From contig NZ_CP059067.1 in NCBI RefSeq assembly GCF_017795745.1, positions 930,001 through 994,000 of the forward strand: a DNA stretch of 64,000 nt. Reading direction: 5' to 3'. The notes below the pieces were generated by a model, which did not search any database, had not been told where the DNA came from, and was given only the letters and a program-made list of their open reading frames with translations. The position numbers and the translations under genes are program-made. The DNA comes from Rhizobacter sp. AJA081-3 (GTDB lineage: Bacteria; Pseudomonadota; Gammaproteobacteria; Burkholderiales; Burkholderiaceae_C). This document shows, in pieces, positions 27,928-53,614 of this stretch (position 1 is the first letter of the stretch; each line of letters opens with the position of its first letter).

Positions 27928-28006
27928 GGGGTCGGCTTCAGCAGGAGACGTGCCAGATGCTACGAGGCTTCGCCCCGTTGGCACAGGCCTTGCCCCAAGA
28001 AGGCGC

Positions 28007-39162: not shown

Positions 39163-39855
39163 ATGCTCAAGGTCGAAGGCATCAACCAGTACTACGGCGG
39201 CTCGCACATCCTGCGCAACCTCGGCTTCGAGTCGAAGATCGGCGAAGTGACGGTGGTGCTGGGCCGCAACGGCGTGGGCAAGACCACGCTGCTGAAGTCG
39301 CTGATGGGCGTGGTGCCGGTGAAGACCGGCACGATCCAGCTCGACGGCCAGGACATCACCCGCGACACGCCCTACGATCGCGTGCGCAAGGGCGTGGGCT
39401 ACGTGCCGCAGGGCCGCGAGATCTTCGGCCGCCTGACGGTGGAAGAGAACCTGCGCATGGGCCTGGCCTACAAGAGCGGCAGCACTCCGATCCCGGCCGA
39501 GCTGTTCGAGCTGTTTCCGGTGCTGAAGACCATGATCAACCGCCGCGGCGGCGACCTCTCCGGCGGCCAGCAGCAGCAGCTCGCGATTGCGCGCGCGCTG
39601 GCTGCGGGGCCGAAGCTGCTCATCCTCGACGAGCCGACCGAAGGCATCCAGCCCAGCATCATCAAGGACATCGGCCGCGTCATCCGCATGCTGGCCGACC
39701 GCAAGACGATGGCCATCGTGCTGGTCGAACAGTACTACGACTTCGCCGCCGAACTGGCCGACCAGTACCTGCTGATGGAACGCGGAGAGATCGTCCAGCG
39801 CGGTCGCGGCAGCGCCATGGAAGCAGAGGGCGTGCGCGACCGCATGTCGATTTAA
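39163..39855 (+). CDS. urtE: Urea ABC transporter ATP-binding protein UrtE
   Basis: 230-residue LivF-type ATPase starting MLKVEGINQYYGGSHILRN. Walker A is GRNGVGKTT, signature LSGGQQQQLAIARAL and Walker B LLILDEPTEGIQPS, all intact. Last gene of urtABCDE. Its stop codon overlaps that of the convergent lipoprotein gene by four bases. Confidence 0.96.
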   Translation: MLKVEGINQYYGGSHILRNLGFESKIGEVTVVLGRNGVGKTTLLKSLMGVVPVKTGTIQLDGQDITRDTPYDRVRKGVGYVPQGREIFGRLTVEENLRMGLAYKSGSTPIPAELFELFPVLKTMINRRGGDLSGGQQQQLAIARALAAGPKLLILDEPTEGIQPSIIKDIGRVIRMLADRKTMAIVLVEQYYDFAAELADQYLLMERGEIVQRGRGSAMEAEGVRDRMSI

Positions 39856-40622
39856 GGCGTGTTGACCAGCTCGGTCGAAGGCGCGCCTTCGTCGGAACGG
39901 ATCACCAGCACCTTCACGTCGCCCGGGGTGACGCTGCCGGGAACGGAAGTCATCAGCCAGTCGGCGTTCTTGGCCAGGTTCACCGGCGAGGTGAAGATCA
40001 CGGTCTTGGTGCCGGCAGTGGTGATGCGCAGGCTGTAGGTGCCGCCCTCGATCTCGCTCGAGTTGACGCCGGTGGCCGGTGCCGCCTGCTTGTAGCCCAC
40101 CGCACCGAAGTTCGGCGTGGCGGTGGCCAGGTCGGCGCCCGGCGCGGTGAGGTAGACGTCGACGCTCGCGGCGTTGAATGAACCGTTGAACATGCGCACG
40201 CGGGCGTTGTCGGTCACGATGCCGCGGGTGTACGGGTCGTCGATCAGCACCACCTCGGTCACCGAGCCGGCATCGGGCACGGCCAGCAGCGTGTACTTGC
40301 GGCCGCGGTTCGCGTCGAAGGTCACGCTGCCCACGGGCAGGGCCGGCGTGGTGGCTGTGCGCACGTCCCAGACGGCGGTGGAGGTCGACACGTCGAAGTA
40401 GTTGGAGGCGCCCTTGTAGGCCATGTTCGTCACGTCGGCGGCCTGGGCCACGTCGGCGCGGAACAGCGAGACATTGGGGGCGAGCGGCACGGCGTGCACG
40501 AGGCGCACCTTCGGGTCGGCGATGTTCAGGCGATCGTCCAGCGAGTCGTCGTCGCTGCCGCCGCAGGCGGCGATCAGGAACACCGGCGCGATGGCCAGCA
40601 AGAGCTTGGTGGAAGGGTTCAT
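39852..40622 (-). CDS. DUF4397-type lipoprotein
   Basis: 256 residues. The signal peptide ends in a lipobox (FLIAACGGSDDD), so it should be a lipid-anchored envelope protein. The mature part is beta-rich with a Gly-Ser/Asp spacer and repeats of the type VRLVHAVPLAPNVSLF and VRMFNGSFNAASVDVYL, typical of DUF4397 adhesion-like domains. Function unknown. It stands alone, convergent with urtE. Confidence 0.85.
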   Translation of the reverse strand: MNPSTKLLLAIAPVFLIAACGGSDDDSLDDRLNIADPKVRLVHAVPLAPNVSLFRADVAQAADVTNMAYKGASNYFDVSTSTAVWDVRTATTPALPVGSVTFDANRGRKYTLLAVPDAGSVTEVVLIDDPYTRGIVTDNARVRMFNGSFNAASVDVYLTAPGADLATATPNFGAVGYKQAAPATGVNSSEIEGGTYSLRITTAGTKTVIFTSPVNLAKNADWLMTSVPGSVTPGDVKVLVIRSDEGAPSTELVNTP

Positions 40623-40769
40623 GGGGAGGTCCTCGACACAGTTCAGTGAAAGTGAGACGACTCTAGGCAGGGCGCTTGGCCCGCGCAGTCGGCCGAACCG
40701 GCATCCGCGTGTCGGACGATGGCTTGCTTGCAGGCCACAATGCGTTTCTGTACGCCGCCGCACCGACAA

Positions 40770-41497: not shown

Positions 41498-41782
41498 ATG
41501 AAGAACCTGCAGGAAGCGACCGAGAAGATCTGCGAGCTCAAGGGCAGCCTGCTCGTGCTCGACACTCTGCTGATGTCGCTGGTCCAGGTGCTGCCGCCGG
41601 AAACACGCGCCGCGCTGCGACAGCGTTTCGAGGCGCACGCCGAGATTGCGCGCACCGTGCTGCTGCACGCGCCGATCTCCGAGCACACCATCGGCACTTT
41701 CGACCACGAGGCCAGCCGCACGCTGGCCATCGTCGGCCACGCATTGCCACCGCCACCGCCGCCGGCCGAACGCGTCGTCTGA
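41498..41782 (+). CDS. Small helical protein of unknown function
   Basis: 94 residues, mostly alpha-helical (MKNLQEATEKICELKGSLLVLDTLLMSLVQVLPPETRAALRQ), ending in a poly-Pro stretch (PPPPPPAERVV). A strong GGAGGAG ribosome site precedes the ATG, which makes translation likely. No family recognised. It lies 59 bp after the GST gene. Confidence 0.7.
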   Translation: MKNLQEATEKICELKGSLLVLDTLLMSLVQVLPPETRAALRQRFEAHAEIARTVLLHAPISEHTIGTFDHEASRTLAIVGHALPPPPPPAERVV

Positions 41783-42005
41783 GGCGTACCGCTGCGCGGC
41801 GCAAGGAGATCGCCGCAGGGCGCCAGCGCTCAAAGGCGTACATTCGGACTTGTAGGTATACGCAAGACCCAGTTTCTTGAGGTCTCTTCGACGCCTCGCC
41901 CCACCCCGGGCCGAGTGCCGGAACTCCCCAGCCGACTTCCTTGAGTGTTTCTGCATGCGCGCGGCATGTCGCCGCCGCATCCCACAGGCCTTCAGAGGAA
42001 ATCTC
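41783..42005 (+). promoter_or_regulatory. Leader region of the cold-shock gene
   Basis: A 223-bp gap precedes the csp ATG. An AT-richer patch near 41840-41862 (TTGTAGGTATACGC) is the best promoter candidate, and would give a leader of about 140 nt, in keeping with the long temperature-sensing leaders of csp mRNAs. A ribosome site AGAGGAAATCTC stands before the ATG. The promoter boxes are weak by eye. Confidence 0.35.
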
Positions 42006-42215
42006 ATGGCAACCCAGACCGGCACCGTGAAATGGTTCAACAACGACAAGGGCTTCGGCTTCATCGCCCAGGATGACGGCGGCAAGGACATCTTCGCTCA
42101 CGTGAGCGAGATCGTCGGCGACGGCTACAAGACCCTGGCCGAAAGCCAGCGCGTCGAGTACGACGTCGGCCAGGGCGCCAAGGGCCCGCAGGCCACGCGC
42201 ATCCGCTCGATCTGA
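42006..42215 (+). CDS. cspA: Cold-shock-domain RNA/DNA-binding protein
   Basis: 69-residue single cold-shock domain with both RNA-binding motifs: KGFGFI (RNP-1) and DIFAHVS (RNP-2 region). It acts as an RNA chaperone; whether it is cold-induced cannot be told, as these genomes carry several copies. It starts MATQTGTVKWFNNDKGFGFI as in other Burkholderiales. Confidence 0.96.
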   Translation: MATQTGTVKWFNNDKGFGFIAQDDGGKDIFAHVSEIVGDGYKTLAESQRVEYDVGQGAKGPQATRIRSI

Positions 42216-42261
42216 CGCGCAGCCTCTCCCCGCTGCAGCGCCTGCGCGCCGGGCCACGGCC

Positions 42262-43599
42262 ATGTCGCTAGCCGAGTGGGCGCTTTCCATCGGCGCGCTG
42301 CTGGTCACCATGGTGCTGGCCGGCACGCTGCTGGGCCGCCTGCCGCTGAGCAGCGCGATGGTGTATCTCGCGCTGGGCTGGCTGCTCGGGCCGGACGTGG
42401 CCGACGTGCTGCGGCCCGATCCGGTGCCGAACGCCGAACTGCTCGGCTGGCTCGCCGAGGCAGGCCTGCTCATCTCGCTGTTCGCTGTCGGTTTGCGGCT
42501 GGGCGTGCCGCTGCGCGACCGGCGCTGGCGGCTGCCCCTGCGGTTGGCCTTCGTGTCGATGGCGGCGATGGTGGCGATGGTCGCGGCACTCGGCGTGTGG
42601 CTGCTCGGGCTGCCGCTCGGCGCGGCCGTGCTGCTGGGTGCGATCCTCGCGCCGACCGACCCGGTGCTCGCCGCCGGCGTGCTGACCGACGACCCCGACA
42701 AGCCCGACCGATTCGGCTTCAGCCTGGCCGCCGAAGGCGGGCTCAACGACGGCGCGGCCTTCCCTTTCGTGTTGCTCGGCCTCGGCCTGCTTGGCCTGCA
42801 CCCGCTGGGCGAGGGCCTGCTGCGCTGGTGGAGCGTAGATCTGCTGTGGTCGACGCTGGGCGGCATCGCCATCGGCGCGGCGCTCGGCCTGGCCACCGGC
42901 AGGCTCGTCGTCTACCTGCGCAGCCGGCACGACGAGGCGGTGGGGCTCGACGAGTTCCTCGGCCTGGGCCTGGTCGGCATGGCCTACGGCATCGCGCAGC
43001 TGTGCCTGGCCTCGGGCTTCCTCGCCGTCTTTGCGGCCGGTCTGGCGCTGCATCGTGTGCGCGAGCGTCCGCAGCCGCACACGCGGCCGCTGAAGGCTGC
43101 CGACGATCTGCAGGGCCACCCGTACGCCACGCTGGCCACGCATTCGCACCACGCCAGCGCGACCATGCGCGACTCGGTGCTGGGTTTCAACGAGCAGCTC
43201 GAGCGCCTGGCCGAAATGGTGCTGGTGCTGGTGCTCGGCGCGATGCTGTCGTATGCACGGCCGCTGCCCGCCGTGTGGTGGTTCGTGCCGGTGGCGATGC
43301 TGCTGCTGCGGCCGCTGTCGGTGGTGCTGGCCACGGTGGGCGAGGGGTTGACGCTGCCGCAGCGCGCGCTGATCGGCTGGTTCGGCATCCGCGGCATCGG
43401 CTCGCTGTTCTACCTGCTGTTCGCGCTGCAGTTCGGCCTGGCCGGCGACGTCGCGGACACGCTGGTGTCGCTGACCCTGTGGACGGTGGCGGCCTCGATC
43501 GTCGCCCACGGCCTGACGGCCCAGCCGCTGACGGGCCGCTACTTCGCTTGGCGGGCACGCAAGCGGGCGGCGCGTGCCGGGCGCAGTCCGGGGGCGTGA
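42262..43599 (+). CDS. CPA1-family sodium/proton antiporter
   Basis: 445 residues with about twelve membrane helices. Family marks are APTDPVLAAGVLTDD and the ND ion-binding motif in EGGLNDGAAFPFV. A basic cytoplasmic tail ends the protein (RARKRAARAGRSPGA). It exchanges Na+ or K+ for protons across the inner membrane; ion preference is unknown. It lies 46 bp after cspA and converges on the next gene. Confidence 0.92.
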   Translation: MSLAEWALSIGALLVTMVLAGTLLGRLPLSSAMVYLALGWLLGPDVADVLRPDPVPNAELLGWLAEAGLLISLFAVGLRLGVPLRDRRWRLPLRLAFVSMAAMVAMVAALGVWLLGLPLGAAVLLGAILAPTDPVLAAGVLTDDPDKPDRFGFSLAAEGGLNDGAAFPFVLLGLGLLGLHPLGEGLLRWWSVDLLWSTLGGIAIGAALGLATGRLVVYLRSRHDEAVGLDEFLGLGLVGMAYGIAQLCLASGFLAVFAAGLALHRVRERPQPHTRPLKAADDLQGHPYATLATHSHHASATMRDSVLGFNEQLERLAEMVLVLVLGAMLSYARPLPAVWWFVPVAMLLLRPLSVVLATVGEGLTLPQRALIGWFGIRGIGSLFYLLFALQFGLAGDVADTLVSLTLWTVAASIVAHGLTAQPLTGRYFAWRARKRAARAGRSPGA

Positions 43600-43737
43600 C
43601 GAGGTCGGCGTTCGAAGCTCGGACTGCCCACCACTTGCCCCTGGAGTGCCGAGGTCGAGTTCCAGCCTTGAGGTCGTGTGTCGCAGCCGTTGGTTGCGGT
43701 CGGGACTGTTGAGGCCCCGACGTTGGACGCAACCCTG

Positions 43738-45237
43738 TCAACTCAGGTGCACGACGGAGCTGGCGAGGTTCCGGAATCCCCCCTGATGTCCGTCATCCGA
43801 ATACATTGCGACCGATACGCGACGCGTGAGAGGGTCGACAGTCAGCACGTTATAGGAAAGAGGCTTGTTCTCGGCCCCGAGGGAAGTGCCGCAACCCACG
43901 ATTGCCGGCTCCGAGGCTCGGCCTGGCCGCAAACGTTGCAGATGCTTGTGGCCGTGCAGCACCACGCTGATCTCCAGGCGGCTGCACCAGGTCATGAACC
44001 GTTCGGCATCTACAAGGCCGAGCAAGGATTCCTGATCCAGAAGGCCGCCCTCTATCAGGGGCTGAACCAGCAGATCGTCATGTCGGCTGTAGCTCCTGGG
44101 ATGGTGGTGCAAAACGGCCACGCGGCGATAGGCCCTCGCTGCCGGCTCACGGGCGCAAAGGGCTTCGAATTCGTGAGCCACGTCATCCAGTTGCGCTTGC
44201 GAGAGCTCTCCGCGCGCAGAACTGCCGTCGCGTGACGAATCCAGGCAAAGGAAGCTGCACATCAGATCGTCATCTGCCACGGCCCTGTGCCATGCCAGGT
44301 CGGCGACGGCGCGCTTGTTGTCTCCCAGAAAGCCGAGTCTGTTGCCGCGCCAACGCTGGTCGTGGTTGCCGGGCACGACGATCACGTCTTTGCCAACCTG
44401 GGTGGACAACCAACGCCGGAACTCCTTGAACTCTGCAAAGTCGTCGTCATCCGCGTCGCGGGGCGTATCGATCAGGTCGCCGGTGATCACGACGCGTGAG
44501 ACGTCGTGGGACTCCGCCATCACGCCCTCTCGGAGGTAGTCCAGATTTCGCCGCGACGCAGGGGTGCCGAAGTGGAGATCGCTCAGGTGAAGGAGTCGCC
44601 TCGAGCGCTTCCTCGGACGATGCGACTGCAGTATTCGGTCGATCGCGTCGAGCCCTCCTTCAAAGTGCGTTTCGAGCTGCGAATACAAGTTCATCACGTC
44701 GCCGAGTCCTGCGAACGCCGCCGCGCCGCTGCTCGACCAGAACAACACGCCCGGCCACTGCTCGATGTAGTTGCACAGGAGTTCCACTGCCGGCATGGGA
44801 TCAACGATGGTGCGACTCCACCGGTCATCGTAGACATCGGGAATCAGTACCAAAGCATGCTTTCCTGACGCGGCAGCCATGTAGTGGAGTGCAGCGTCGA
44901 GCTTGTGCGTGTCCAGGCTGCCGTGTCCGCCGCCCGTCGGCAGGGCGAAGAGCATGTGGCTCTCGAACAAGATCCGCACCGGCGCGGTGATCGCAGCGAG
45001 GCGCGCTGGCTCGAGCAGGAAGTTCGACTCGTTTCGGCCTAGGCGCTGCAGTGACTCCTCGGCAGCGACCGCGAGCTGGGCACGGCCTTCCGGTGTCCAG
45101 GTCCGAGTCTGGCCCTCGTTGGCAACGTTGCCCAGGAACTGGCGAAGGGGCCAAGCTTCCACGCGCGGGACACGCGTCGTCCTTGTTGTGAGGTACACGG
45201 CAAGGTTAACGAACTTGACTGGGAACACGAAGCACAT
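43738..45237 (-). CDS. Calcineurin-like metallophosphoesterase with unknown N-terminal domain
   Basis: 499 residues. The C-terminal part (from about residue 215) is a phosphoesterase with all metal motifs: HLSDLHFG (Asp220), GDLIDTP, PGNHDQRW, HHHPRS and VLHGHKHLQ. The N-terminal 210 residues resemble nothing I know (KLDAALHYMAAASGKHALVLIPDVYDD). The ATG at 45237 is preferred because TTGGAG lies six bases upstream; the frame stays open a further 534 bases, but that part does not look like protein. Its substrate could be a nucleotide or a phosphoprotein. Base composition looks less GC-extreme than its neighbours. Confidence 0.85.
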   Translation of the reverse strand: MCFVFPVKFVNLAVYLTTRTTRVPRVEAWPLRQFLGNVANEGQTRTWTPEGRAQLAVAAEESLQRLGRNESNFLLEPARLAAITAPVRILFESHMLFALPTGGGHGSLDTHKLDAALHYMAAASGKHALVLIPDVYDDRWSRTIVDPMPAVELLCNYIEQWPGVLFWSSSGAAAFAGLGDVMNLYSQLETHFEGGLDAIDRILQSHRPRKRSRRLLHLSDLHFGTPASRRNLDYLREGVMAESHDVSRVVITGDLIDTPRDADDDDFAEFKEFRRWLSTQVGKDVIVVPGNHDQRWRGNRLGFLGDNKRAVADLAWHRAVADDDLMCSFLCLDSSRDGSSARGELSQAQLDDVAHEFEALCAREPAARAYRRVAVLHHHPRSYSRHDDLLVQPLIEGGLLDQESLLGLVDAERFMTWCSRLEISVVLHGHKHLQRLRPGRASEPAIVGCGTSLGAENKPLSYNVLTVDPLTRRVSVAMYSDDGHQGGFRNLASSVVHLS

Positions 45238-45801
45238 GTCGAACTCCAACAAGCTGCCATGGCCAGCATTCGAATGCTCGGTATAGCGTTCGTCACTCCC
45301 TAGTCGATGTGGGTACGGCGGCATTCGCCGCTCGCACGGGGACGGAGGCAGAACCTGAAGTGATTGACTGCCGTTGCGCGACTGCCACTTCAAGGTCGCG
45401 CCAAGGCCTGCGGTTCGCACCCGATCTGAATCGAACGAGTGCGGCCCAGGAGCGTCGGCTGCCTGACGCGACCTGAGGCAGATCCACAGGTGGCCTGACT
45501 CTGCGCCCGAGACCTGCCGTTGTGCGGACAGGCCTGCTCTTGAACCTCGCCGCCATGGACGTTGCACGCGGCCACAGGCAAAGGCGCCTCGACGTTGACC
45601 GACAGGAGCTGATTGGCACGCCCGAGATTCTTTCGCCCTTGCCTGCCCGGCCAGTCGGGTGTCGTCGAGTACCTTCTCGCGCCTGACCTCAGCCGGCGCG
45701 TGGCCCGATGCCTTGCAGCAAGAGTCGGCGAACGCGAGCGTTGTCGCTCCGGCGGATTCATGCCATGCCACGTGCTGCTGATTCCGAGGTCAGCAGTTGC
45801 A
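45238..45801. other. Gene-poor region upstream of the sigma-54 cluster
   Basis: About 560 bp without a convincing gene; open frames here read as low-quality Arg/Ser/Pro-rich peptides. It holds a perfect 14-bp palindrome, AGCATTCGAATGCT (45265-45278), next to a minus-strand TATACC box (45285-45280) that may serve the phosphoesterase gene. The remainder shows nothing recognisable and may be the remnant of an insertion. Confidence 0.5.
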
Positions 45802-45821
45802 GGGCGAACAGCGGTTCGCCC
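45802..45821. promoter_or_regulatory. Upstream palindrome 1, probable activator binding site
   Basis: GGGCGAAC-AGCG-GTTCGCCC is a perfect 8-bp inverted repeat with a 4-bp spacer, about 116 bp upstream of the predicted transcription start. It shares the core GCGAAC-N4-GTTCGC with the palindrome at 45845-45860. Its position is typical of sites for sigma-54-dependent activators; the likely binder is the activator encoded at 51679-53109. Confidence 0.65.
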
Positions 45822-45844
45822 GTATGACATCCGCCGGTGCCGAT

Positions 45845-45860
45845 GCGAACCGCAGTTCGC
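45845..45860. promoter_or_regulatory. Upstream palindrome 2, probable activator binding site
   Basis: GCGAAC-CGCA-GTTCGC is a perfect 6-bp inverted repeat with a 4-bp spacer. Its centre is 41 bp from that of palindrome 1, close to four helical turns, so both would face the same side of the DNA. It is about 75 bp upstream of the predicted start. Confidence 0.65.
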
Positions 45861-45901
45861 GTTGCCGGCCCGAGAAGGCCCGTTTCCAGGGGATTCAGAG
45901 A

Positions 45902-45917
45902 TGGCACGGTGATTGCG
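45902..45917 (+). promoter_or_regulatory. Sigma-54 promoter (-24/-12)
   Basis: TGGCACG-GTGA-TTGC matches the consensus TGGCACG-N4-TTGC at every fixed position; the GG (45903-45904) and GC (45915-45916) are separated by exactly 10 bp. Transcription should begin near 45928, 27 bases before the first ATG of the cluster. A gene for a sigma-54 activator lies at the other end of the same cluster. Confidence 0.85.
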
Positions 45918-45954
45918 AAACGAGGCCTGTCCAACCTGTTGCGAGGAGATGCCC

Positions 45955-46578
45955 ATGCGATTCCCGAACCTTGATTCCGAGTTCGAGGCGAGCTCAGCGT
46001 TCGAGGCGAGTGGCGACGAATTCGAGTCATCGCCGCTGGCTGGCGAGAGCGATTCCGAACAGATGCAGCTCGCCGCTGAACTCCTCGGCGTGTCCAGCGA
46101 AGGGGAGCTCGAGGAGTTCCTCGGCGGGCTGATCAGCAAGGCCGTCGGTCTGGGCTCCAGCTTCCTGAAGAGCTCCGCCGGGCAGCAGCTCGGCGGGCTG
46201 CTCAAGTCGGCCGCGAAGAAGGCTCTGCCCCAGGTGGGTCAGGCGATCGGCGGCCACTTCGGCGGCGCCACCGGCGCTCGCTTCGGCGGTCAGGTCGCCG
46301 CGGGTGCCGGCCGCCTGCTCGGCCTGGAACTCGAGGGTCTCAGCAACGAGGACAGCGAGTTCGAGATGGCGCGGCAGTTCGTGCGCTTCGCGCAGGGCGC
46401 CGCGCAGCGCCTGCCCGGCCGCGGCAGCAGCGCCGCCGACGCGCGAAGCGCCTACGTCGAATCGGCGCGCGAGAACGCACCTGGCCTGCTGCCGGGCACG
46501 CGCATCGGTTCGCCGCTGTCCAGCTTTCCCAGCACCGGCCGCTGGGTGCGGCGCGGCCGGACCATCACCCTCATGTGA
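45955..46578 (+). CDS. Gly/Ala-rich protein with FLGG motif and GRWVRRGR tail (paralogue 1)
   Basis: 207 residues. An acidic N-terminus (about 1-45, rich in Glu/Ser/Phe) leads to LLGVSSEGELEEFLGG (ending near residue 58), then an amphipathic Gly/Ala/Lys-rich part (LISKAVGLGSSFLKSSAGQQ, GGHFGGATGARFGGQVAAGAG), a conserved SNEDSEFEMARQFVRFA block and a C-terminus GRWVRRGRTITLM. No signal peptide. ELEEFLGG resembles the double-glycine end of leaders of secreted peptides, but the part after it is long. Ribosome site GCGAGGAG. First gene behind the sigma-54 promoter; 46601-47227 is a paralogue. Function unknown. Confidence 0.85.
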   Translation: MRFPNLDSEFEASSAFEASGDEFESSPLAGESDSEQMQLAAELLGVSSEGELEEFLGGLISKAVGLGSSFLKSSAGQQLGGLLKSAAKKALPQVGQAIGGHFGGATGARFGGQVAAGAGRLLGLELEGLSNEDSEFEMARQFVRFAQGAAQRLPGRGSSAADARSAYVESARENAPGLLPGTRIGSPLSSFPSTGRWVRRGRTITLM

Positions 46579-46600
46579 ATCCACCACCAGGAGAAGCGAC

Positions 46601-47227
46601 ATGCACAACCTCGACCGCGTGCTCGGCCCGCAGCAGATGTTCAACGAGATGGAGTACGAGACCGGCCCGTTCGGCGCCGAGTTCGAGAGCGATGGTGAAG
46701 GCGCCATGCTCAACGAGGAGGCTCTGGCCGCCGAGCTGCTCACCGTCAGCAACGAGGAGGAGCTGGAGCAGTTCCTCGGGGGCCTGATCAAGAAGGCCGC
46801 CTCGGGCATCTCGAGCTTCGCCAAGTCGTCAGCTGGCAAGGCCCTCGGCGGCGTGCTCAAGCAGGTAGCCAAGACCGCGCTGCCCACGGTGGGCGGTGCG
46901 CTCGGCTCGCTGATCCCGATCCCCGGCGTCGGCACGGCCGTCGGCACGATGGCGGGCAAAGCGCTTGCCAGTGCGCTCGAGTTCGAGACCGGGCTGAGTG
47001 CCGAGGACCGCGAGTTCGAGGTTGCCAAGCAGGTCGTCCGCCTGGCCACCGATGCCGCGCGCACCGCCGCGCAGGCACCGGCCGGCGCCAACCCCGCCGC
47101 GGTGGCCATGCAGGCCGTCAAGACGGCCATGCAGGGCGCCGCCGGGGCCGGCACCGCAGCAGGCGGACAGGCGCAAAGCGGGCGCTGGGTGCGCCGTGGC
47201 CGCCACATCGTGCTGCTCGGGGTGTGA
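46601..47227 (+). CDS. Gly/Ala-rich protein with FLGG motif and GRWVRRGR tail (paralogue 2)
   Basis: 208 residues, same layout as paralogue 1: an acidic start (MHNLDRVLGPQQMFNEMEYE), LLTVSNEEELEQFLGG (ending near 56), a Lys/Gly/Ala part with a hydrophobic hairpin-like centre (GSLIPIPGVGTAVGTMAG), the conserved LSAEDREFEVAKQVVRLA block and a C-terminus GRWVRRGRHIVLLGV. The central stretch could insert into a membrane or assemble into a polymer. AGGAG ribosome site, 22 bp after paralogue 1. Unknown function. Confidence 0.85.
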   Translation: MHNLDRVLGPQQMFNEMEYETGPFGAEFESDGEGAMLNEEALAAELLTVSNEEELEQFLGGLIKKAASGISSFAKSSAGKALGGVLKQVAKTALPTVGGALGSLIPIPGVGTAVGTMAGKALASALEFETGLSAEDREFEVAKQVVRLATDAARTAAQAPAGANPAAVAMQAVKTAMQGAAGAGTAAGGQAQSGRWVRRGRHIVLLGV

Positions 47228-47228
47228 G

Positions 47229-48479
47229 ATGGCGCTGTCGGTGTTCGCGGCCCGCCTGCTCGAGCAGGAAGTGGCCGGCCTGATCGGCCGGCTGCAGCAG
47301 GTGCGCCCCTTCGCGCTGCACGAGACCATGGTGCCGGCGGCATTGCCGTCGCACCGCGCATTGCGCGACATCGACCTCCACCTCGACAGCGGCCGCCGCT
47401 CACTGATCGCACTGGCGCGGCGCTTCGTGCGCTGGCTCGCCGGCGGCCGTGCGAGCCGCCACAGCGCTGCCGCGGTGTACCGGCTGTACGTGTTCCTGCG
47501 CCTGCGCGTGAACCTCGAGCTCACCAAGTTCGACCTGTTCGCCGACGCCATCACCCAGCGCAGCGAAGCCGGGACCGGTGTGCTGCTCGCCGGCCTGGAT
47601 GCGCTGGCGCACGACGCGCTGAACATGCCGCACACCGCGCTGGCCGCCCCGCCACTGCTGTGCTACCTCGACCGCGGCATTGGCGCGGCGATCCGCCGCG
47701 CCCGCACGCGCCTGCCCGGCGGCGGCGAGAACCCGGTGGCGATCATCCGCGTGCCGCGCGAACGCATGGTCGGCCTAGGCATCGCCTCGTCGCTGGTGCA
47801 CGAAGCCGGTCACCAGGGCGCTGCGCTGCTCGATCTGGTGCCGCTGCTGCGCCGCGCGATGGAGCCGAACCTGAGCGCCGCCCGCGCCCGCAGCCCCTGG
47901 CAGTGCTGGTACCGCTGGATCTCCGAGATCGTCGCCGACCTCTGGTCGGTGTCGCGGCTCGGCGTGGCATCGACGCTGGGATTGATGAACGTGGTGAGCC
48001 TGCCTCGCGTGTTCGTCTTCCGTGCGAACCTCGACGATCCGCACCCGACTCCCTGGGTGCGCGTGTTGATCAGCGTCGAGATCGGCCGGCAGATCTATCC
48101 GCATGCGCAATGGGACCGGCTGCTCGATCTCTGGCTGGCCAGCTACCCGCCGCCGAGCCATGGCCCGCAGGCCGCCATCGTGCGCGAGCTCGCCGCCCAC
48201 GTGCCGGACTTCGTGACCTGGCTGCTGCGCCAGCATGCGGGCGTGCCCGCGCAGCCGATCGGCCGGCTGCTGGTCGACCCCGAGCTCGACGCGCGACGCC
48301 TGGACGAACACGTCGAGCAGTGGTCCCGCCGCCCGGGCCACCTGCATCGCTTACGGCCCTGCCAGGCTTTCGCCGTGGCCGGCTACTGCAAGCTCGTCCG
48401 CGCCCGCCTGCCGGTGCCGGAGATCGAGCTCTTCTCATCATTGCTGACGCGCTGGGCCCAGGCCGAGCGCACCTCGTGA
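47229..48479 (+). CDS. Protein with HEXXH motif, putative zinc metallopeptidase
   Basis: 416 residues. SSLVHEAGHQGAALLD carries His191-Glu192-x-x-His195, with a candidate third ligand Glu233 in WISEIVADLW, a gluzincin-like spacing. The N-terminal 150 residues are helical and Arg/Leu-rich; the C-terminal part is also helical. No signal peptide. It starts one base after the stop of paralogue 2, so is surely coupled to it. If it is a peptidase, the two preceding proteins are the obvious substrates (inference). Confidence 0.8.
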   Translation: MALSVFAARLLEQEVAGLIGRLQQVRPFALHETMVPAALPSHRALRDIDLHLDSGRRSLIALARRFVRWLAGGRASRHSAAAVYRLYVFLRLRVNLELTKFDLFADAITQRSEAGTGVLLAGLDALAHDALNMPHTALAAPPLLCYLDRGIGAAIRRARTRLPGGGENPVAIIRVPRERMVGLGIASSLVHEAGHQGAALLDLVPLLRRAMEPNLSAARARSPWQCWYRWISEIVADLWSVSRLGVASTLGLMNVVSLPRVFVFRANLDDPHPTPWVRVLISVEIGRQIYPHAQWDRLLDLWLASYPPPSHGPQAAIVRELAAHVPDFVTWLLRQHAGVPAQPIGRLLVDPELDARRLDEHVEQWSRRPGHLHRLRPCQAFAVAGYCKLVRARLPVPEIELFSSLLTRWAQAERTS

Positions 48480-48507
48480 TCGTTGAACCGTTCCAAGGAG
48501 ATCGAAC

Positions 48508-50079
48508 ATGGCTACCCGTGATTCCCGCGACACGCGCAAGACCCCCGTGCCCGAGAAGCTGGCCGAGGCCAAGCCCCATACGCCGGAAGGCGCGCTGCGC
48601 CATGGCCAGGGCGGCTGCTCGCCATGCGACGGGCCGATCGAGGTGACGCTGTCCGCGCGCCCGCCGGTAGACACCGAGCAGGCAGAGATCAACACGCTGA
48701 TCCGCTACCAGACGCAACTGGCTAGCTTCAACGAGTACAAGAAGTTCATGGACGCGCTGACGAACACGGCACCGAACCAGGTGCCTCCTGCAGCCGAGGC
48801 GTCGGAGGACACCGGTCCCGATCTGCGCCGCGCGGATCCTCGGCAGCGCATGTTCAACCGCTTCGGTAACGGCACAAATCTGTTCAAGATCCACGGCACG
48901 GTGCCCTACGAGTTGCTGCGCTTGGCTACTGAACTGTGGCTGCTGACGCGCTGCGGGCCAGCCTGCAGCGACTTCGCGGAAGACCCGGCCAAGGAGGGAC
49001 TCCTGCTCGCCGATCACTACGCCGCCGATGCGACACGTTGGGGAATCGATGCGGCTGAACTGCAGTCCCGCGTCGAGGAGTACATCGACAAGTTCGTCTC
49101 GCCGGGTGCGGCAACGCCGTACCTGAGCCTGATCGTCAACCAGCTGCTGCCAACGCTGCCTCCACCCGACCGCCTCGGCAATGCCTACCGCGGCCGCTGG
49201 GAGTGCCCGAGCATGATCGAGCTGATCTGGTCTTACTGGCACGAGGAAGGCGCGCAGTGCCAGGCCATGAACGCGATCGCGCTGCGCTTCCAGAACCGCA
49301 AAAGCCGGCCAGGGCGCGACCCGCTGGCCAATCTGGCGATCGACCCGCTGCGCCCGGCGCAGAACCTGCTGTGGGGCTGGGTGGAAGCCTCGTACAAGCG
49401 GCTCACCGTCGAACGCCGCGCCTACGAGTACGACCACCACTACGGCCTGACGCTGCTCGGCAAGGCGGTGCCGCAGCTATTGTCGGCAGACAGTCGCTCG
49501 AAGTTCCTCGAGGCCTTCCACTCGCTGCTGCACATCGCGCACCTGTACTACGTGGAGCGTGCTGACACCACGCGCATCCCCGACGGCTTCCCGCTGCTCA
49601 ACGCGCTGCGCCACGTGCACCTGATCCTGGCCGAGGGCGCGCACAACCAGTACGGCGACCTGCCCTGGACCAGCCGCGTCGAGATGCTGATCGAACAGTG
49701 GTTCTTGGCGCGGCCGGAGATCCGCGAGTTCCTGCGCGGCCGCGCGATGGTGCCCTACCACGAGGCATGGATGGGCCAGGTGGACACGATGAAGAAGCTT
49801 CAGGGCTGGAGCGACGTGACGGTGACGCACTTCCACGAGCTGGCCACCACCGGCGAGGCGGTGCTGCTGTCGGTGCGCCACGGCCCCTGGGCCACCACCA
49901 ATGACCAGGAGGAAGCCAAGACCTGGGCCGACTACTGGCGTCCCGAGATTCAGCGCTACATCTACGCCTACAAGGCCGCCACCGGTGCCGACTTGACGAT
50001 CGAGCCTGTCAATACCGTGATGCCGGCGCGGCTGCTGCAGGCGCGCCTGGCGCGGCAGCAGGCGGCCGTGGCGTACTGA
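48508..50079 (+). CDS. Unknown 523-residue cytoplasmic protein
   Basis: A Lys/Pro-rich N-terminus (to about residue 45, with CSPCDG) is followed by a helical body rich in Trp, Tyr, Arg and His: VPYELLRLATELWLLTRCGP, LIWSYWHEEGAQCQAMNAI, YEYDHHYGLTLLGKAVPQLL, FHSLLHIAHLYYVERAD and YHEAWMGQVDTMKKLQGWSD. No signal or membrane segment, and no family I can name. AAGGAG ribosome site; 28 bp after the HEXXH gene, 23 bp before the GIY-YIG-like gene. Confidence 0.8.
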   Translation: MATRDSRDTRKTPVPEKLAEAKPHTPEGALRHGQGGCSPCDGPIEVTLSARPPVDTEQAEINTLIRYQTQLASFNEYKKFMDALTNTAPNQVPPAAEASEDTGPDLRRADPRQRMFNRFGNGTNLFKIHGTVPYELLRLATELWLLTRCGPACSDFAEDPAKEGLLLADHYAADATRWGIDAAELQSRVEEYIDKFVSPGAATPYLSLIVNQLLPTLPPPDRLGNAYRGRWECPSMIELIWSYWHEEGAQCQAMNAIALRFQNRKSRPGRDPLANLAIDPLRPAQNLLWGWVEASYKRLTVERRAYEYDHHYGLTLLGKAVPQLLSADSRSKFLEAFHSLLHIAHLYYVERADTTRIPDGFPLLNALRHVHLILAEGAHNQYGDLPWTSRVEMLIEQWFLARPEIREFLRGRAMVPYHEAWMGQVDTMKKLQGWSDVTVTHFHELATTGEAVLLSVRHGPWATTNDQEEAKTWADYWRPEIQRYIYAYKAATGADLTIEPVNTVMPARLLQARLARQQAAVAY

Positions 50080-50102
50080 GGTGACGCGGAAGGAGCGGGA
50101 CG

Positions 50103-50954
50103 ATGGACACGTTGCGCGAGGTGGTGATCGACGAGGCGCGCTGGCCGCGGATGTTCGCGAAGTTGCGGCGGGCGGGGATGTATTCGAGTTGTGGGTGCGC
50201 GGGCTGCGGGGGTTGCCAGGCGGCGGCACAGCGCTTCGTGCGGGGTATTGCGCGCGGGGCACGCTACGTCGGAGCCTGGGGTGGTAGACCGCAGGGCGGG
50301 CCGCTGTCCGTGTTCCGCAGCATCCTCGCACCGCGTCCGATGAACGTGCTCGTCGGCGGCGACGCCGCTGCTCCGGCGGTCATCGACATCTCGATTGACC
50401 CGATCGCGCTAGGCGAAGGCGTCGAAGAGCACGAAGATCCCACGTGGCGCGCGGCGATCGCGTCGCGTGCGTGGCGCGCCGGCGCGGCGCCGCGGCTGTC
50501 AGCGATCCCGGAAAAAATTCCGGGCCACCCGCAGAGCAGGTGGCAAGGCCCGGTGTCATTCCTCGACATCTCGCGTGCTGGACCGAACCTCGATCGAGTG
50601 CTGCCGCCGAAACGCGGCCTGTACCTGATCGTCTGGCCGCACGGGGCGTACCTGGGACTGTCCGCGCAGCACAAGGGCATCCAGGCTCGCGTGCTCGACC
50701 ACCTCAAGGAGTACTACGGGTTCAGCTTCGGACCACTCAGCAACGAACAGCGCAGTCAGTTCCGCGTCTACTGGCTCGATATGCACAACCACGGCAAGCC
50801 GGCAATCACCGCAATGGAGCGGTCGTACCTTAACAGCATCATCCGGCGCCCGCTTGCCGAGGAACCCCGGGCCACGCCCGAGCGGCGCGCAGCCTACGGC
50901 CTTATCGGCTTCCGCAACCGCAAGGAGCTGGAGGCCGGGCTCGACACGGCGTGA
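50103..50954 (+). CDS. GIY-YIG-like protein with Cys-rich N-terminus
   Basis: 283 residues. The N-terminal part has a cysteine cluster (SSCGCAGCGGCQ, about residues 29-39) that could bind metal. From residue 172 the sequence reads GLYLIVWPHGAYLGLS, then Arg196 in IQARVLDHL, Glu239 in AMERSYLNS and Asn244: the spacing and order of the GIY-YIG nuclease core (GIY, YIG, Arg, Glu, Asn). Catalytic activity is unproven. It is in the operon between the 523-residue protein and the amidohydrolase. A nuclease role in this setting is unexpected. Confidence 0.72.
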   Translation: MDTLREVVIDEARWPRMFAKLRRAGMYSSCGCAGCGGCQAAAQRFVRGIARGARYVGAWGGRPQGGPLSVFRSILAPRPMNVLVGGDAAAPAVIDISIDPIALGEGVEEHEDPTWRAAIASRAWRAGAAPRLSAIPEKIPGHPQSRWQGPVSFLDISRAGPNLDRVLPPKRGLYLIVWPHGAYLGLSAQHKGIQARVLDHLKEYYGFSFGPLSNEQRSQFRVYWLDMHNHGKPAITAMERSYLNSIIRRPLAEEPRATPERRAAYGLIGFRNRKELEAGLDTA

Positions 50955-50963
50955 CGGCCGCCA

Positions 50964-51749
50964 ATGCTCATCGACTGCCACTGCCACGCCGGCCCCGGCG
51001 ATGGACTCACCGGCCCGTGGGACACGCGCGCCGATCTCGGCGCCTACTTGCGCCGCTGCCGCTCGGCGGGCATCGATCGCAGCGTGGTGTTCGCCGCGCT
51101 GCAGCGCGACTACCGCGCCGGCAACGCCGCGGTGGCTCGCCTGGTCGCACTCGATCCGCAACGCCTCATCGGCTTCGTCTTCCTCGACGCCCGCATGCCA
51201 CGCGAGGCAATGCGCGAGCAGTTGGAACGCTACGTCGGCGGCCAGGGCTTCGCCGGCATCAAGCTGCACCGGCACGACGCTCCGATCTCGCGCGCGGTGT
51301 GCGAACTCGCCGCCGAGTTCGGCGTGCCGGTGCTCTACGACCTCGCCGGCGAGGTGGCCACGCTCGAACTGTTCGCACCCGAGTATCGCGAGGTCGACTT
51401 CATCATCCCCCACCTGGGCAGCTTTGCCGACGACTGGAAGGCGCAGCTGACCCTGATCGACCACCTGCAGCGACACCCCAACGTCTTTGCCGACACCGCC
51501 GGCGTGCGCCGCTTCGACCTGCTCGTCGAAGCGGTGCGCCGCGCCGGCCCGGAGAAGATTCTGTTCGGCTCCGACGGGCCGTGGCTGCACCCGGCCGTCG
51601 AACTGGCGAAGATCCGCGCGATCGGGCTGCCCGATCGGGACTTCGCGCTGATCGGCGGCGGCAATCTGATGCGGCTGCTCAGCCGTCGCGCTGGCCGGGC
51701 GCGGTCTCGCTCTGCCGCCGCTGGCGCTTCTGCAGCGCCCGGTCGGTGA
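50964..51749 (+). CDS. Amidohydrolase-2 family TIM-barrel hydrolase
   Basis: 261 residues. Metal motifs are HxH in LIDCHCHAG, KLHRHD, the His in IPHLGSF and the Asp in LFGSDGPW. The family hydrolyses or decarboxylates small cyclic or aromatic compounds; substrate unknown. The last 20 or so residues (RRAGRARSRSAAAGASAAPG) are the antisense of the next gene's end and are probably not functional. It starts 9 bp after the GIY-YIG-like gene and overlaps the convergent activator gene by 71 bp. Confidence 0.88.
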   Translation: MLIDCHCHAGPGDGLTGPWDTRADLGAYLRRCRSAGIDRSVVFAALQRDYRAGNAAVARLVALDPQRLIGFVFLDARMPREAMREQLERYVGGQGFAGIKLHRHDAPISRAVCELAAEFGVPVLYDLAGEVATLELFAPEYREVDFIIPHLGSFADDWKAQLTLIDHLQRHPNVFADTAGVRRFDLLVEAVRRAGPEKILFGSDGPWLHPAVELAKIRAIGLPDRDFALIGGGNLMRLLSRRAGRARSRSAAAGASAAPGR

Positions 51750-53109
51750 CGCCAAGCCGGCGTGCGGCGCGGCCGACCTGCCCGCCTTCCATCGCTCGCG
51801 CCAGACGGATCGCGATCTCGCCAGCGCGCTCTTCGATGTCCGCGAGGCCGAGACCATCTTCCAGCCAGCGGCGCACGACATCCTCTGCTTCGGCGCCTGC
51901 CGAGACCTCGTCCGCGCTCCCGTATTCGATCAGCCCGGCTTGCACCAGCCAGGCCCGCGGCAGGCAGCCGACAGAGACGGGCCCTTTCTCCGCGCCATGC
52001 GCCGCCGCCGCCCGCCGCATCAGCTGGCGCAGCTCGCGCACGTTGCCGGCAAACGGCGCCGCCTCGAGCAAAGTCTGCATCAGTGCGTCAGGTCCCTCGC
52101 TGCAGCCGCATTCGGCGAGAAAGCGTCGGGCCAATGGGAGGATGTCGCCGCGCCGCTCGCGAAGCGTGGGCAACTGAACCACGCTGGCGGCCATGCGGTA
52201 GTAGAGGTCGGCGCGGAAGCTCCCTTGCGCGACAGCCGCCTCGAGATCGCGATGGGTCGCGCAGACGAGGCGGAAGTCTGCCGCTTGCCAGTGCGTGCCG
52301 CCCACGCTCTTGTACTTGCCTTCCTGCAGCACTCGCAGCAGCTGGGCCTGCACGGCGAGCGGCAGTTCGCCCACCTCGTCAAGAAACAGGGTCCCGCCGT
52401 CGGCAGCCGCCACGGCGCCCCGGCGAGCGCCCACGGCGCCGGTGAAGGAGCCGCGCTCGTGGCCGAACAGTTCGCTGGCCGCCAGCTCGGGCGAGAGCGT
52501 GGTGCAGTCGACGACGACCAGCTCGCCACGGCCACATTGTTCGTCCAGCGTGTGGACGAGGCGCGCGAGCAGTTCCTTGCCTGTGCCGGTTTCCCCCAGA
52601 AGCAGCACCGGGGCGCGCGACCCGTGCGTGGCAAGCACTACCTCGCGCAGTGCGGCACGCCAAGTCGCGCTGTGCCCGCACAAGTTGTCCTGGACTAGCG
52701 GGGTGTCGAGCAATTGCTCGATCCGGGCTTCGCGGCACGCACGTTCGGCAACGGCCGCGAGCATCTCGCCAATCGGCCTGCCGCAACGCAGATCGGTCGC
52801 CGCGCAGGCGAGCACCTCCAGTGCACGCCGCACCGGGGGAACCTCGCAGCACACCAGCACGCGCCCGCCCACGGGCAGCGGTCCGAGGCTGGCCAGCGCC
52901 GCCAAACCTGTCGGATCGACGCGCGAAACCACCATCACATCGACCGGCTGCTGGTCAGCTGTCTCGACGATCTTCAGCTGCTCGTGAGCGCGCGCCGCGG
53001 AACGTGCCGCCTCCCGTTGAGCCGGCGACAGTCGAGCATCGAGCGCGACTCGGAGCCGGTGCTGTGCCTCCACTCGCAGACTCCCGCCCGGCGTTTGGCG
53101 CTTGGACAT
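51679..53109 (-). CDS. Sigma-54-dependent transcriptional activator
   Basis: 476 residues. An N-terminal receiver-like but degenerate region (about 1-130) precedes the AAA+ domain (about 145-385) with Walker A LLGETGTGKE, the sigma-54 contact loop GSFTGA (a variant of GAFTGA), Walker B GGTLFLDEVGELP and the arginine-finger region. The C-terminal Fis-type HTH is EGGQVGRAARRLGVTDRALQKR. The N-terminus lacks a clear phosphoacceptor, so it may respond to a ligand or protein. It converges on the six-gene cluster that has a sigma-54 promoter at 45902, which it very probably controls. Confidence 0.92.
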   Translation of the reverse strand: MSKRQTPGGSLRVEAQHRLRVALDARLSPAQREAARSAARAHEQLKIVETADQQPVDVMVVSRVDPTGLAALASLGPLPVGGRVLVCCEVPPVRRALEVLACAATDLRCGRPIGEMLAAVAERACREARIEQLLDTPLVQDNLCGHSATWRAALREVVLATHGSRAPVLLLGETGTGKELLARLVHTLDEQCGRGELVVVDCTTLSPELAASELFGHERGSFTGAVGARRGAVAAADGGTLFLDEVGELPLAVQAQLLRVLQEGKYKSVGGTHWQAADFRLVCATHRDLEAAVAQGSFRADLYYRMAASVVQLPTLRERRGDILPLARRFLAECGCSEGPDALMQTLLEAAPFAGNVRELRQLMRRAAAAHGAEKGPVSVGCLPRAWLVQAGLIEYGSADEVSAGAEAEDVVRRWLEDGLGLADIEERAGEIAIRLARAMEGGQVGRAARRLGVTDRALQKRQRRQSETAPGQRDG

Positions 53110-53614
53110 CGCGCCTTGCGACGCCGGGAGCGGGATGATGTTGCCGCAACGCAGCGAGGCCCATCCCTAGCGATCGACTTGCAATTCTGCGATGCCGTGC
53201 ACAACGATGCCAGCGTGGGTTCGCGGAAACGCCGATGCAACAGGTTACATCGTTAAGGTGGCGCCTACAGTCACCTTGAAGTCACCTCAACCGCATGGCG
53301 CGAACCTGCGGCCGATGGCACCAGCTTCGGCTTCCACGCTGCCGGCAGATCCAAGCTTCAGTGGGCTGCACATAAGCGAACTGCCGGCGACCATGGTCAA
53401 TCGTGAGTGGGCTCATGGTCTCGCCATGCGGGCGGGCATGGTGAAGCTCGCCACGGCGGATGCAAGGGCTTGTGCGCGATGGCGTTGAACGGCGGTTGGC
53501 GCCAGACCTTGAAGCAGACGGTCGCAGACGACCGCTCCTGGCCGCGAGCCCCTACTCGTCCCCGCCACGAGCCGACTCGTTGGCAGGAGACCGGTACCCG
53601 TCTCCGCGCAACGC
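53110..53614. other. 505-bp region between the activator gene and fumC
   Basis: No convincing gene. The right part is antisense-like, Arg-rich open frame caused by GC bias. The left part (53110-53260) must hold the activator's own promoter on the minus strand; no clear sigma-70 or sigma-54 boxes were recognised, and only a half-site GCGAAC (53299-53304) recalls the cluster's palindromes. Confidence 0.45.

Follow-up and report, generated by a model that had tools for sequence, protein, structure and literature searches.

In the RtcR-rtcBA and PspF-psp operons, the activator gene lies beside its target operon, which is served by a -24/-12 promoter and paired upstream sites. These features were shared by a gene cassette (45802-53109) located in the window, i.e., the whole 64,000-nucleotide stretch analysed here, which corresponded to C1:930001-994000 of the complete, one-contig, 5.40-Mb genome (designated G000) of Rhizobacter sp. 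AJA081-3; however, this cassette carried no RNA-ligase or psp gene. The cassette displayed the layout A-type protein(s), a protein with an HEXXH motif (HEXXH protein), a protein designated '523', an optional pyridoxal-phosphate (PLP) enzyme, variable cargo, an optional amidohydrolase, and a convergent sigma-54 activator.

Other described systems resembled the cassette in part. Effector clusters of the type VI secretion system (T6SS) and the extracellular contractile injection system (eCIS) likewise have nuclease or peptidoglycan-hydrolase cargo that can be swapped and lacks signal peptides; holin-endolysin cassettes pair a small membrane-active protein with a wall hydrolase; and class II double-glycine bacteriocins show, like the A proteins, E(-8), L(-7), a hydrophobic residue at -4, and G(-2), followed by a cationic amphipathic stretch. 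In actinobacteria, a zincin metallopeptidase gene adjoins the gene of the small, diverging FxSxx-COOH protein that it cleaves (PMC7159879). The cassette likewise had a metallopeptidase gene beside a diverging-protein gene, but its A tail was GRWVRRG..., and no Pfam or NCBIfam model united the two.

Comparison across genomes shows the cassette to be a horizontally mobile unit whose genes keep a fixed order and which carries a predicted one-target sigma-54 switch of its own; confidence in its regulation and mobility is high, and an antimicrobial or competition role is proposed with moderate to low confidence. None of the A, HEXXH, and 523 proteins reached a Pfam or NCBIfam cut-off, and searches of the literature, covering open-access papers but not subscription papers or preprints, found no description of the cassette. 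The statement of the initial annotation that no described system has this gene set held across Pfam, NCBIfam, PADLOC, PHROGs, PDB, and this literature. The cassette fitted no described family of systems searched and is regarded as new in kind, although it may still turn out to serve a familiar biological role. Its core trio lay outside the searched family libraries, yet four phyla have kept its gene order together with a conserved DNA signature for regulation.

Gene content and order of the cassette

The window operon opened with two paralogous genes, A1 (45955-46578, + strand) and A2 (46601-47227, +), whose products shared 52% identity over residues 25-206. A1 had an acidic N-terminus, an ELEEFLGG motif, a cationic amphipathic Gly/Ala-rich middle, and a GRWVRRGR tail; the corresponding ELEQFLGG motif of A2 (residues 54-61; 46760-46783, +) marked the acidic/cationic boundary and is the proposed processing region. 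The HEXXH protein, a predicted zinc metallopeptidase (47229-48479, +), started 1 bp past the A2 stop and contained a HEAGH motif (residues 191-195; 47799-47813, +) that was invariant in 27 aligned sequences, distant relatives included. It was followed by the 523-residue protein 523 (48508-50079, +), predicted to be all-helical and highly conserved over its C-terminal ~300 residues, by a GIY-YIG-like protein in the cargo slot (50103-50954, +; N-terminal Cys-rich stretch CGCAGCGGC), and by an amidohydrolase of the Amidohydro_2 family (PF04909, Pfam E 8.7e-23; 50964-51749, +). The sigma-54 activator gene (51679-53109, -) was convergent with the amidohydrolase gene, the two overlapping tail-to-tail by 71 bp; the activator, an enhancer-binding protein (EBP), had an AAA+ domain that reads GSFTGA instead of GAFTGA and a C-terminal Fis-like region. 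All seven genes called in the initial annotation were intact and lay about where it had placed them.

When genome contigs were scanned with A2, six loci emerged; in each of them, local BLAST found the activator as well as homologues of HEXXH and 523, and in five it found the amidohydrolase, which locus L009 lacked. Plasmid records, Burkholderiales, Myxococcota, Gemmatimonadota, and a further order within the class of the window yielded more copies; HEXXH proteins from other phyla were 44-49% identical to that of the window. Gene order was counted in 26 loci (25, including the window, by local profiles, plus L117), and promoters and boxes in 27, since L075, at a contig end, entered the latter count only; L011, a repeat of L006, and plasmid match H3 were outside these counts. 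The 26 loci represent fewer than 26 independent cases, because L067-L070 were close relatives.

The order A-HEXXH-523 was kept in 26/26 loci from four phyla, and the convergent activator closed the cassette in 25, the exception being L096, where the contig ended too early. The proposal that these genes make up a single unit was thereby borne out: the genes were linked rather than scattered in relatives. A PLP enzyme (Aminotran_1_2 family) was present in 19/26 loci and an amidohydrolase in 17/26; the window, L008, L009, L064, L072, and L074, all with complete ends, had no PLP gene.

The cargo slot was variable, and the GIY gene of the window was one among several alternatives. A GIY-like protein was found in 16/26 loci with a search model trained on 12 of these. 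The GIY-YIG-like label was the weakest item of the initial annotation: the window protein alone had no Pfam match, but 5/12 aligned relatives matched PF01541 at E<=0.1, and the window protein aligned with them at the positions GLY...YLG, R, and E. Elsewhere, the slot was occupied by VanY plus PG_binding_1 (L008), Amidase_2 (L074), PG_binding_1 (L006 and L081), or PG_binding_1 plus GIY-YIG (L062). GIY and an A domain were fused in one frame in L007 and also, though GIY scored weakly there, in L006. Acidic F/W/Y-rich stretches were present in several cargo proteins, the count for the GIY protein of the window being zero.

The sigma-54 switch

Two palindromes reported in the initial annotation upstream of A1 proved real: (i) a distal box GGGCGAAC-AGCG-GTTCGCCC (45802-45821), with the core GCGAA-N6-TTCGC and 8-bp arms that were 100% complementary, and (ii) a proximal box GCGAAC-CGCA-GTTCGC (45845-45860), 41 bp from the distal one. 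The predicted sigma-54 promoter, TGGCACGGTGATTGC (TGGCAC-N5-TTGC; 45902-45916, +), matched the -24/-12 consensus at 10/10 core positions, a quality reached by 0/300 resampled controls. Its earlier description as consensus-perfect was right for this core but slightly too strong, the following base being G rather than A/T. An extended 16-mer sigma-54 pattern gave three matches (<=1 mismatch) in the 64-kb window versus 1.37 expected, three being reached in 13/100 shuffles, and the window promoter match by itself was therefore within chance and not significant. The two other one-mismatch matches to this pattern were located at 27940-27994, on opposite strands and 24 bp apart.

The promoter and palindromes rose above chance through their recurrence. 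A -24/-12 site with >=8/10 core positions lay upstream of the first A gene in 25/27 loci, the remaining two being L064 (7/10) and L096; among the 18 promoters called first, those of L008 (0.093) and L073 (0.210) were individually non-significant. For L064, L072, L081, and L082, the promoter windows were re-anchored, their frames having first been placed too far upstream. The box pair (C/G)CGAA-N6-TTCG(C/G), at >=8/10 positions, was present upstream of A in 27/27 loci, with a spacing of 41-44 bp in 25 of them and of 32 bp in L064 and L074. The 18 loci with promoters called first held 37 boxes versus 3.6 expected, with the proximal box 46-82 bp upstream of the -24 element. Since the earlier loci had served to define the box motif, only L094-L097 and L117 were held out; in these five, the box pair was found in 5/5 and the promoter in 4/5. 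The two palindromes are a conserved predicted activator site.

Whole-genome scans with the exact box-pair pattern found it at the cassette in 19/19 genomes. Outside the cassette, it was found at seven places in four genomes (one each in G000 and G348, two in G436, and three in G564), and in G500 a second pair was located 0.7 kb further within the same cassette; a reversed control pattern occurred in 1/19 genomes. This near-absence elsewhere indicates that the activator is most likely dedicated to the cassette operon, and it lends strong support, together with the conserved boxes and -24/-12 promoter, to the control by an adjacent activator put forward in the initial annotation. The sole other exact pair of the window genome lay at G000:C1:1603870-1603919, with a spacing of 36 bp.

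The AAA+ domain of the activator matched Sigma54_activat in 21/21 proteins; the contact loop was GSFTGA in the window and GAFTNA or GAFTHA in L081, L082, and L083. The N-terminal region of the window activator had no Pfam match, and no receiver family appeared for this part among the 25 matches listed; this region may be a degenerate receiver. The best models for the AAA+ part of the window activator were RtcR in NCBIfam and RtcR_PspF2 in PADLOC. Identity with RtcR (CARF-AAA-HTH) was rejected: the NCBIfam score was 269 of the 650 bits required, with a match only from residue 132 that excluded the N-terminal part, and the PADLOC match began at residue 164. The sigma-54 promoter consensus and the use of upstream repeat sites by such activators are described in PMC7910581. 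Regulation of the cassette by a one-target sigma-54 activator is deduced from its anatomy together with this established behaviour. With one promoter, one activator, and one operon per genome, and a 55-bp signature by which the cassette can be located, the switch lends itself to easy testing, and cultivable hosts of the cassette include Corallococcus, Duganella, Ensifer, and Paraburkholderia phymatum.

Mobility and incidence

The congener G002 was collinear with the window on both flanks (86.9-93.6% identity over aligned blocks) but held 32 bp in place of window positions 41762-53614. This mobile segment of 11,853 bp comprised the cassette and three non-cassette genes. One of them (43738-45771, -), whose annotated start is probably too early, encoded a metallophosphoesterase (PF00149, E 1.1e-12) with a weak resemblance to the anti-phage phosphoesterase DS9_1 (66 of 420 bits). 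The other two, at 41762-43599, are what we take to be a cold-shock-like and a cation-antiporter-like gene. A second window stretch of ~0.9 kb (39852-40769) likewise had no counterpart at that place in G002.

A tree was built on HEXXH plus 523 from 25 loci, with a quick tree for topology tests. The window copy was separate from that of Piscinibacter sp. ACE_PRO42 (L006, same genus), and a forced grouping of the two was rejected (p-AU 1.9e-6, quick tree). A single clade of all eight Burkholderiales copies was rejected too; that of the five Gemmatimonadota copies was not (p 0.41). Since the window branch was long, long-branch effects are possible on this tree.

The incidence of the cassette was low and patchy. 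HEXXH matches were found in 4/399 Burkholderiales-order genomes, 24/195 Myxococcota (nine full-length and strong), 3/247 Acidobacteriota (one strong), 6/200 Gemmatimonadota (five strong), and 5/398 genomes of a phylum-wide draw partly shared with the Burkholderiales draw (three strong). Among 72,556 plasmid records, six had matches, four of them across most of the protein, and rhizobial plasmids were among the carriers. A phage origin was rejected: with HEXXH as query, no relatives were found in phages or in viral contigs, the latter giving 29 pattern matches, none confirmed.

Possible function of the cassette

The cassette is tentatively read, at somewhat below an even chance, as an inducible effector system in which the HEXXH protein matures the A proteins beside swappable cargo, under the dedicated sigma-54 switch. 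A cue would be sensed by the N-terminal region of the activator, and an activator hexamer bound to the two CGAA-N6-TTCG boxes would act on sigma-54 polymerase at the single promoter before A. The A protein would be made as a soluble precursor, acidic up to ELEQFLG and then cationic, amphipathic, and Gly-zipper-like; the co-translated HEXXH metalloprotease would cut near ELEQFLG and free a membrane-active or self-assembling part of A. The 523 protein would be a dedicated partner or scaffold, and the PLP and amidohydrolase enzymes, where present, may tailor or detoxify. The slot after 523 would hold interchangeable effectors, sometimes fused to A: the GIY-YIG nuclease in the window, and PG-binding, VanY-type, and Amidase_2-type wall enzymes elsewhere. 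This wall-hydrolase and nuclease cargo is the reason why action on other bacteria is suggested.

The composition of the A proteins is consistent with such processing. The exact motif [ED][LI]-x-x-F[LI]G was present in 23/35 A-type frames, and in these 23 proteins the net charge was -9 to -21 over the 60 residues up to the motif and +4 to +11 over the next 40; the tail GRWVRRG-x2-I was conserved in most rows of the A alignment. Within ten cassette genomes, A matches were confined to the cassette, apart from one weak match in the window genome (E 3.6e-4). The residues H191, E192, H195, E233, and D237 were among at least 12 that were invariant in the HEXXH protein (27 sequences, down to 21% identity), a pattern that points to a working zinc peptidase of gluzincin type, with the downstream E233 as the probable third zinc ligand. 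The structure model of this protein had a mean pLDDT of 87, and no clear fold relative was found. For 523, ~60 residues were invariant in 20 sequences, and the structure model was poor (mean pLDDT 48). The strict adjacency of the two genes, the acidic-to-cationic layout of A, and the zincin-precursor precedent (PMC7159879) suggest maturation of A by the HEXXH protein. The initial annotation proposed that these proteins are both produced and processed by the unit, and this may be so.

Several observations weigh against the effector reading. Nothing in the cassette could be recognised as an immunity gene or an exporter, and no match to a T6SS sheath (PF05943) or phage sheath (PF04984) was found in the complete window genome; with no delivery route recognised there, the antimicrobial role is weakened. 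A T6SS sheath was present in 14/20 and a phage-type sheath in 10/20 cassette genomes, but contractile delivery as a general requirement was rejected for the window genome, which had neither. A crude hydropathy check of 15 products other than A, including 11 cargo proteins, revealed no signal peptide. The hydropathy of 12 A proteins (0.98-1.54) was below the usual transmembrane level, and the charge test covered the 23 frames with the exact motif, the other 12 of 35 being outside it. The amidohydrolase and PLP enzymes have no obvious fit to a toxin system, and the window cassette was a long branch without a PLP gene. The likeness to holin-endolysin cassettes extended to a weak match of A2 residues 41-126 to a PHROG named endolysin (E 2.9e-4), but the window cassette had no wall hydrolase and its HEXXH protein, as noted above, no phage relatives.

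The same genes can be read in other ways. Rather unlikely, in our estimation, is an assembly system in which A self-assembles into a particle or layer, either kept inside the cell or released, and cargo is recruited by A domains or acidic aromatic tails; HEXXH would serve as maturation protease and 523 as scaffold, much as in capsids that mature by proteolysis. The fusion of GIY cargo to A domains, the acidic F/W/Y-rich stretches of several cargo proteins, the one protease beside A in 26/26 loci, and the strong conservation of 523, which is not a recognised enzyme, are all in keeping with assembly. Searches of Pfam, NCBIfam, and PHROGs with A1, A2, HEXXH, and 523, however, yielded nothing like a capsid, shell, or encapsulin, and the acidic tails were not universal in cargo, the window GIY protein having a count of zero. 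We consider it unlikely that A is the ribosomal precursor of a natural product, with a leader ending at ELEQFLG, HEXXH as leader peptidase, and PLP enzyme and amidohydrolase tailoring the product. The spacing E(-8), L(-7), F(-4), and G(-2) is leader-like, G being found at -2 in 23/23 motifs, the PLP and amidohydrolase genes were frequent (19/26 and 17/26 loci), and a zincin peptidase with a small diverging precursor is a known pairing in another system (PMC7159879). This is opposed by the length of A (~200 residues) with a conserved tail beyond the proposed core, by the residue at -1, by the six PLP-less cassettes (window, L008, L009, L064, L072, and L074), and by the absence of any C39 peptidase/ABC exporter family among the eight window proteins scanned with Pfam, a search confined to the window. 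At position -1, directly after the motif Gly, G or S was found in 11/23 motifs and N, K, or D in 12/23, a distribution that counts against the maturation step of the effector reading as well and led to the rejection of A as a double-glycine bacteriocin precursor.

An even less probable alternative is a self-directed unit, i.e., inducible suicide or anti-phage defence, in which A permeabilises the producer's own membrane and nuclease or wall-hydrolase cargo finishes the cell. Such cargo without signal peptides would suit it, as would the metallophosphoesterase weakly like an anti-phage protein that shares the mobile segment in the window. This phosphoesterase was, however, far below the family cut-off (66 of 420 bits), and none was noticed in the inspected gene lists of other cassettes; PADLOC gave no match at E<=0.1 for A1, HEXXH, 523, GIY, or the amidohydrolase, and that of A2 to PDC-M09B (0.0021) was not above noise; and several loci had wall cargo rather than a nuclease. 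If the effector reading is true, the cassette would represent a new system, antibacterial or particle-forming, whose cargo can be swapped; if false, it would still be a compact example of one regulator per mobile cassette, with its cis-element carried across phyla.

Distant HEXXH relatives were found in other clusters opening with acidic Gly-rich proteins (L065, L077-L080, L084, and L099; also L076, L098, and L100). The clusters of L065, L077-L080, L084, and L099 had a protein of 363-388 residues; in the maps of three of them (L065, L077, and L099) there was a gene for a LuxR-type regulator, and two (L065 and L099) had a match to the amidohydrolase profile. It is possible, though doubtful, that the cassette represents an undescribed effector class, with a protease-matured Gly-zipper A pair, HEXXH, and helical 523 as a delivery or killing platform, nuclease or wall-hydrolase cargo mounted via A domains or acidic aromatic tails, a one-target sigma-54 switch, cross-phylum spread, and the LuxR-type clusters (L065, L077-L080, L084, and L099) as a second branch. 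Homology of 523 to the 388- and 372-residue proteins of the parallel clusters found no support (hhalign E 0.055 at 1% probability and 0.024 at 2%, respectively).

EWE/EFE-rich acidic proteins were present in the parallel clusters L065 (8441-16832), L077 (6045-14272), and L099 (7667-17891). A distant HEXXH relative was also carried by a Bradyrhizobium quebecense plasmid (L066, 9479-10900), in a cluster whose annotation lists patatin, DUF2252, PLD, a pair of CHAT proteins, and a GMC oxidoreductase. In both cluster types, a gene that we take to be M20 peptidase-like preceded the amidohydrolase gene (L010, 14845-16557; L065, 14592-16010).

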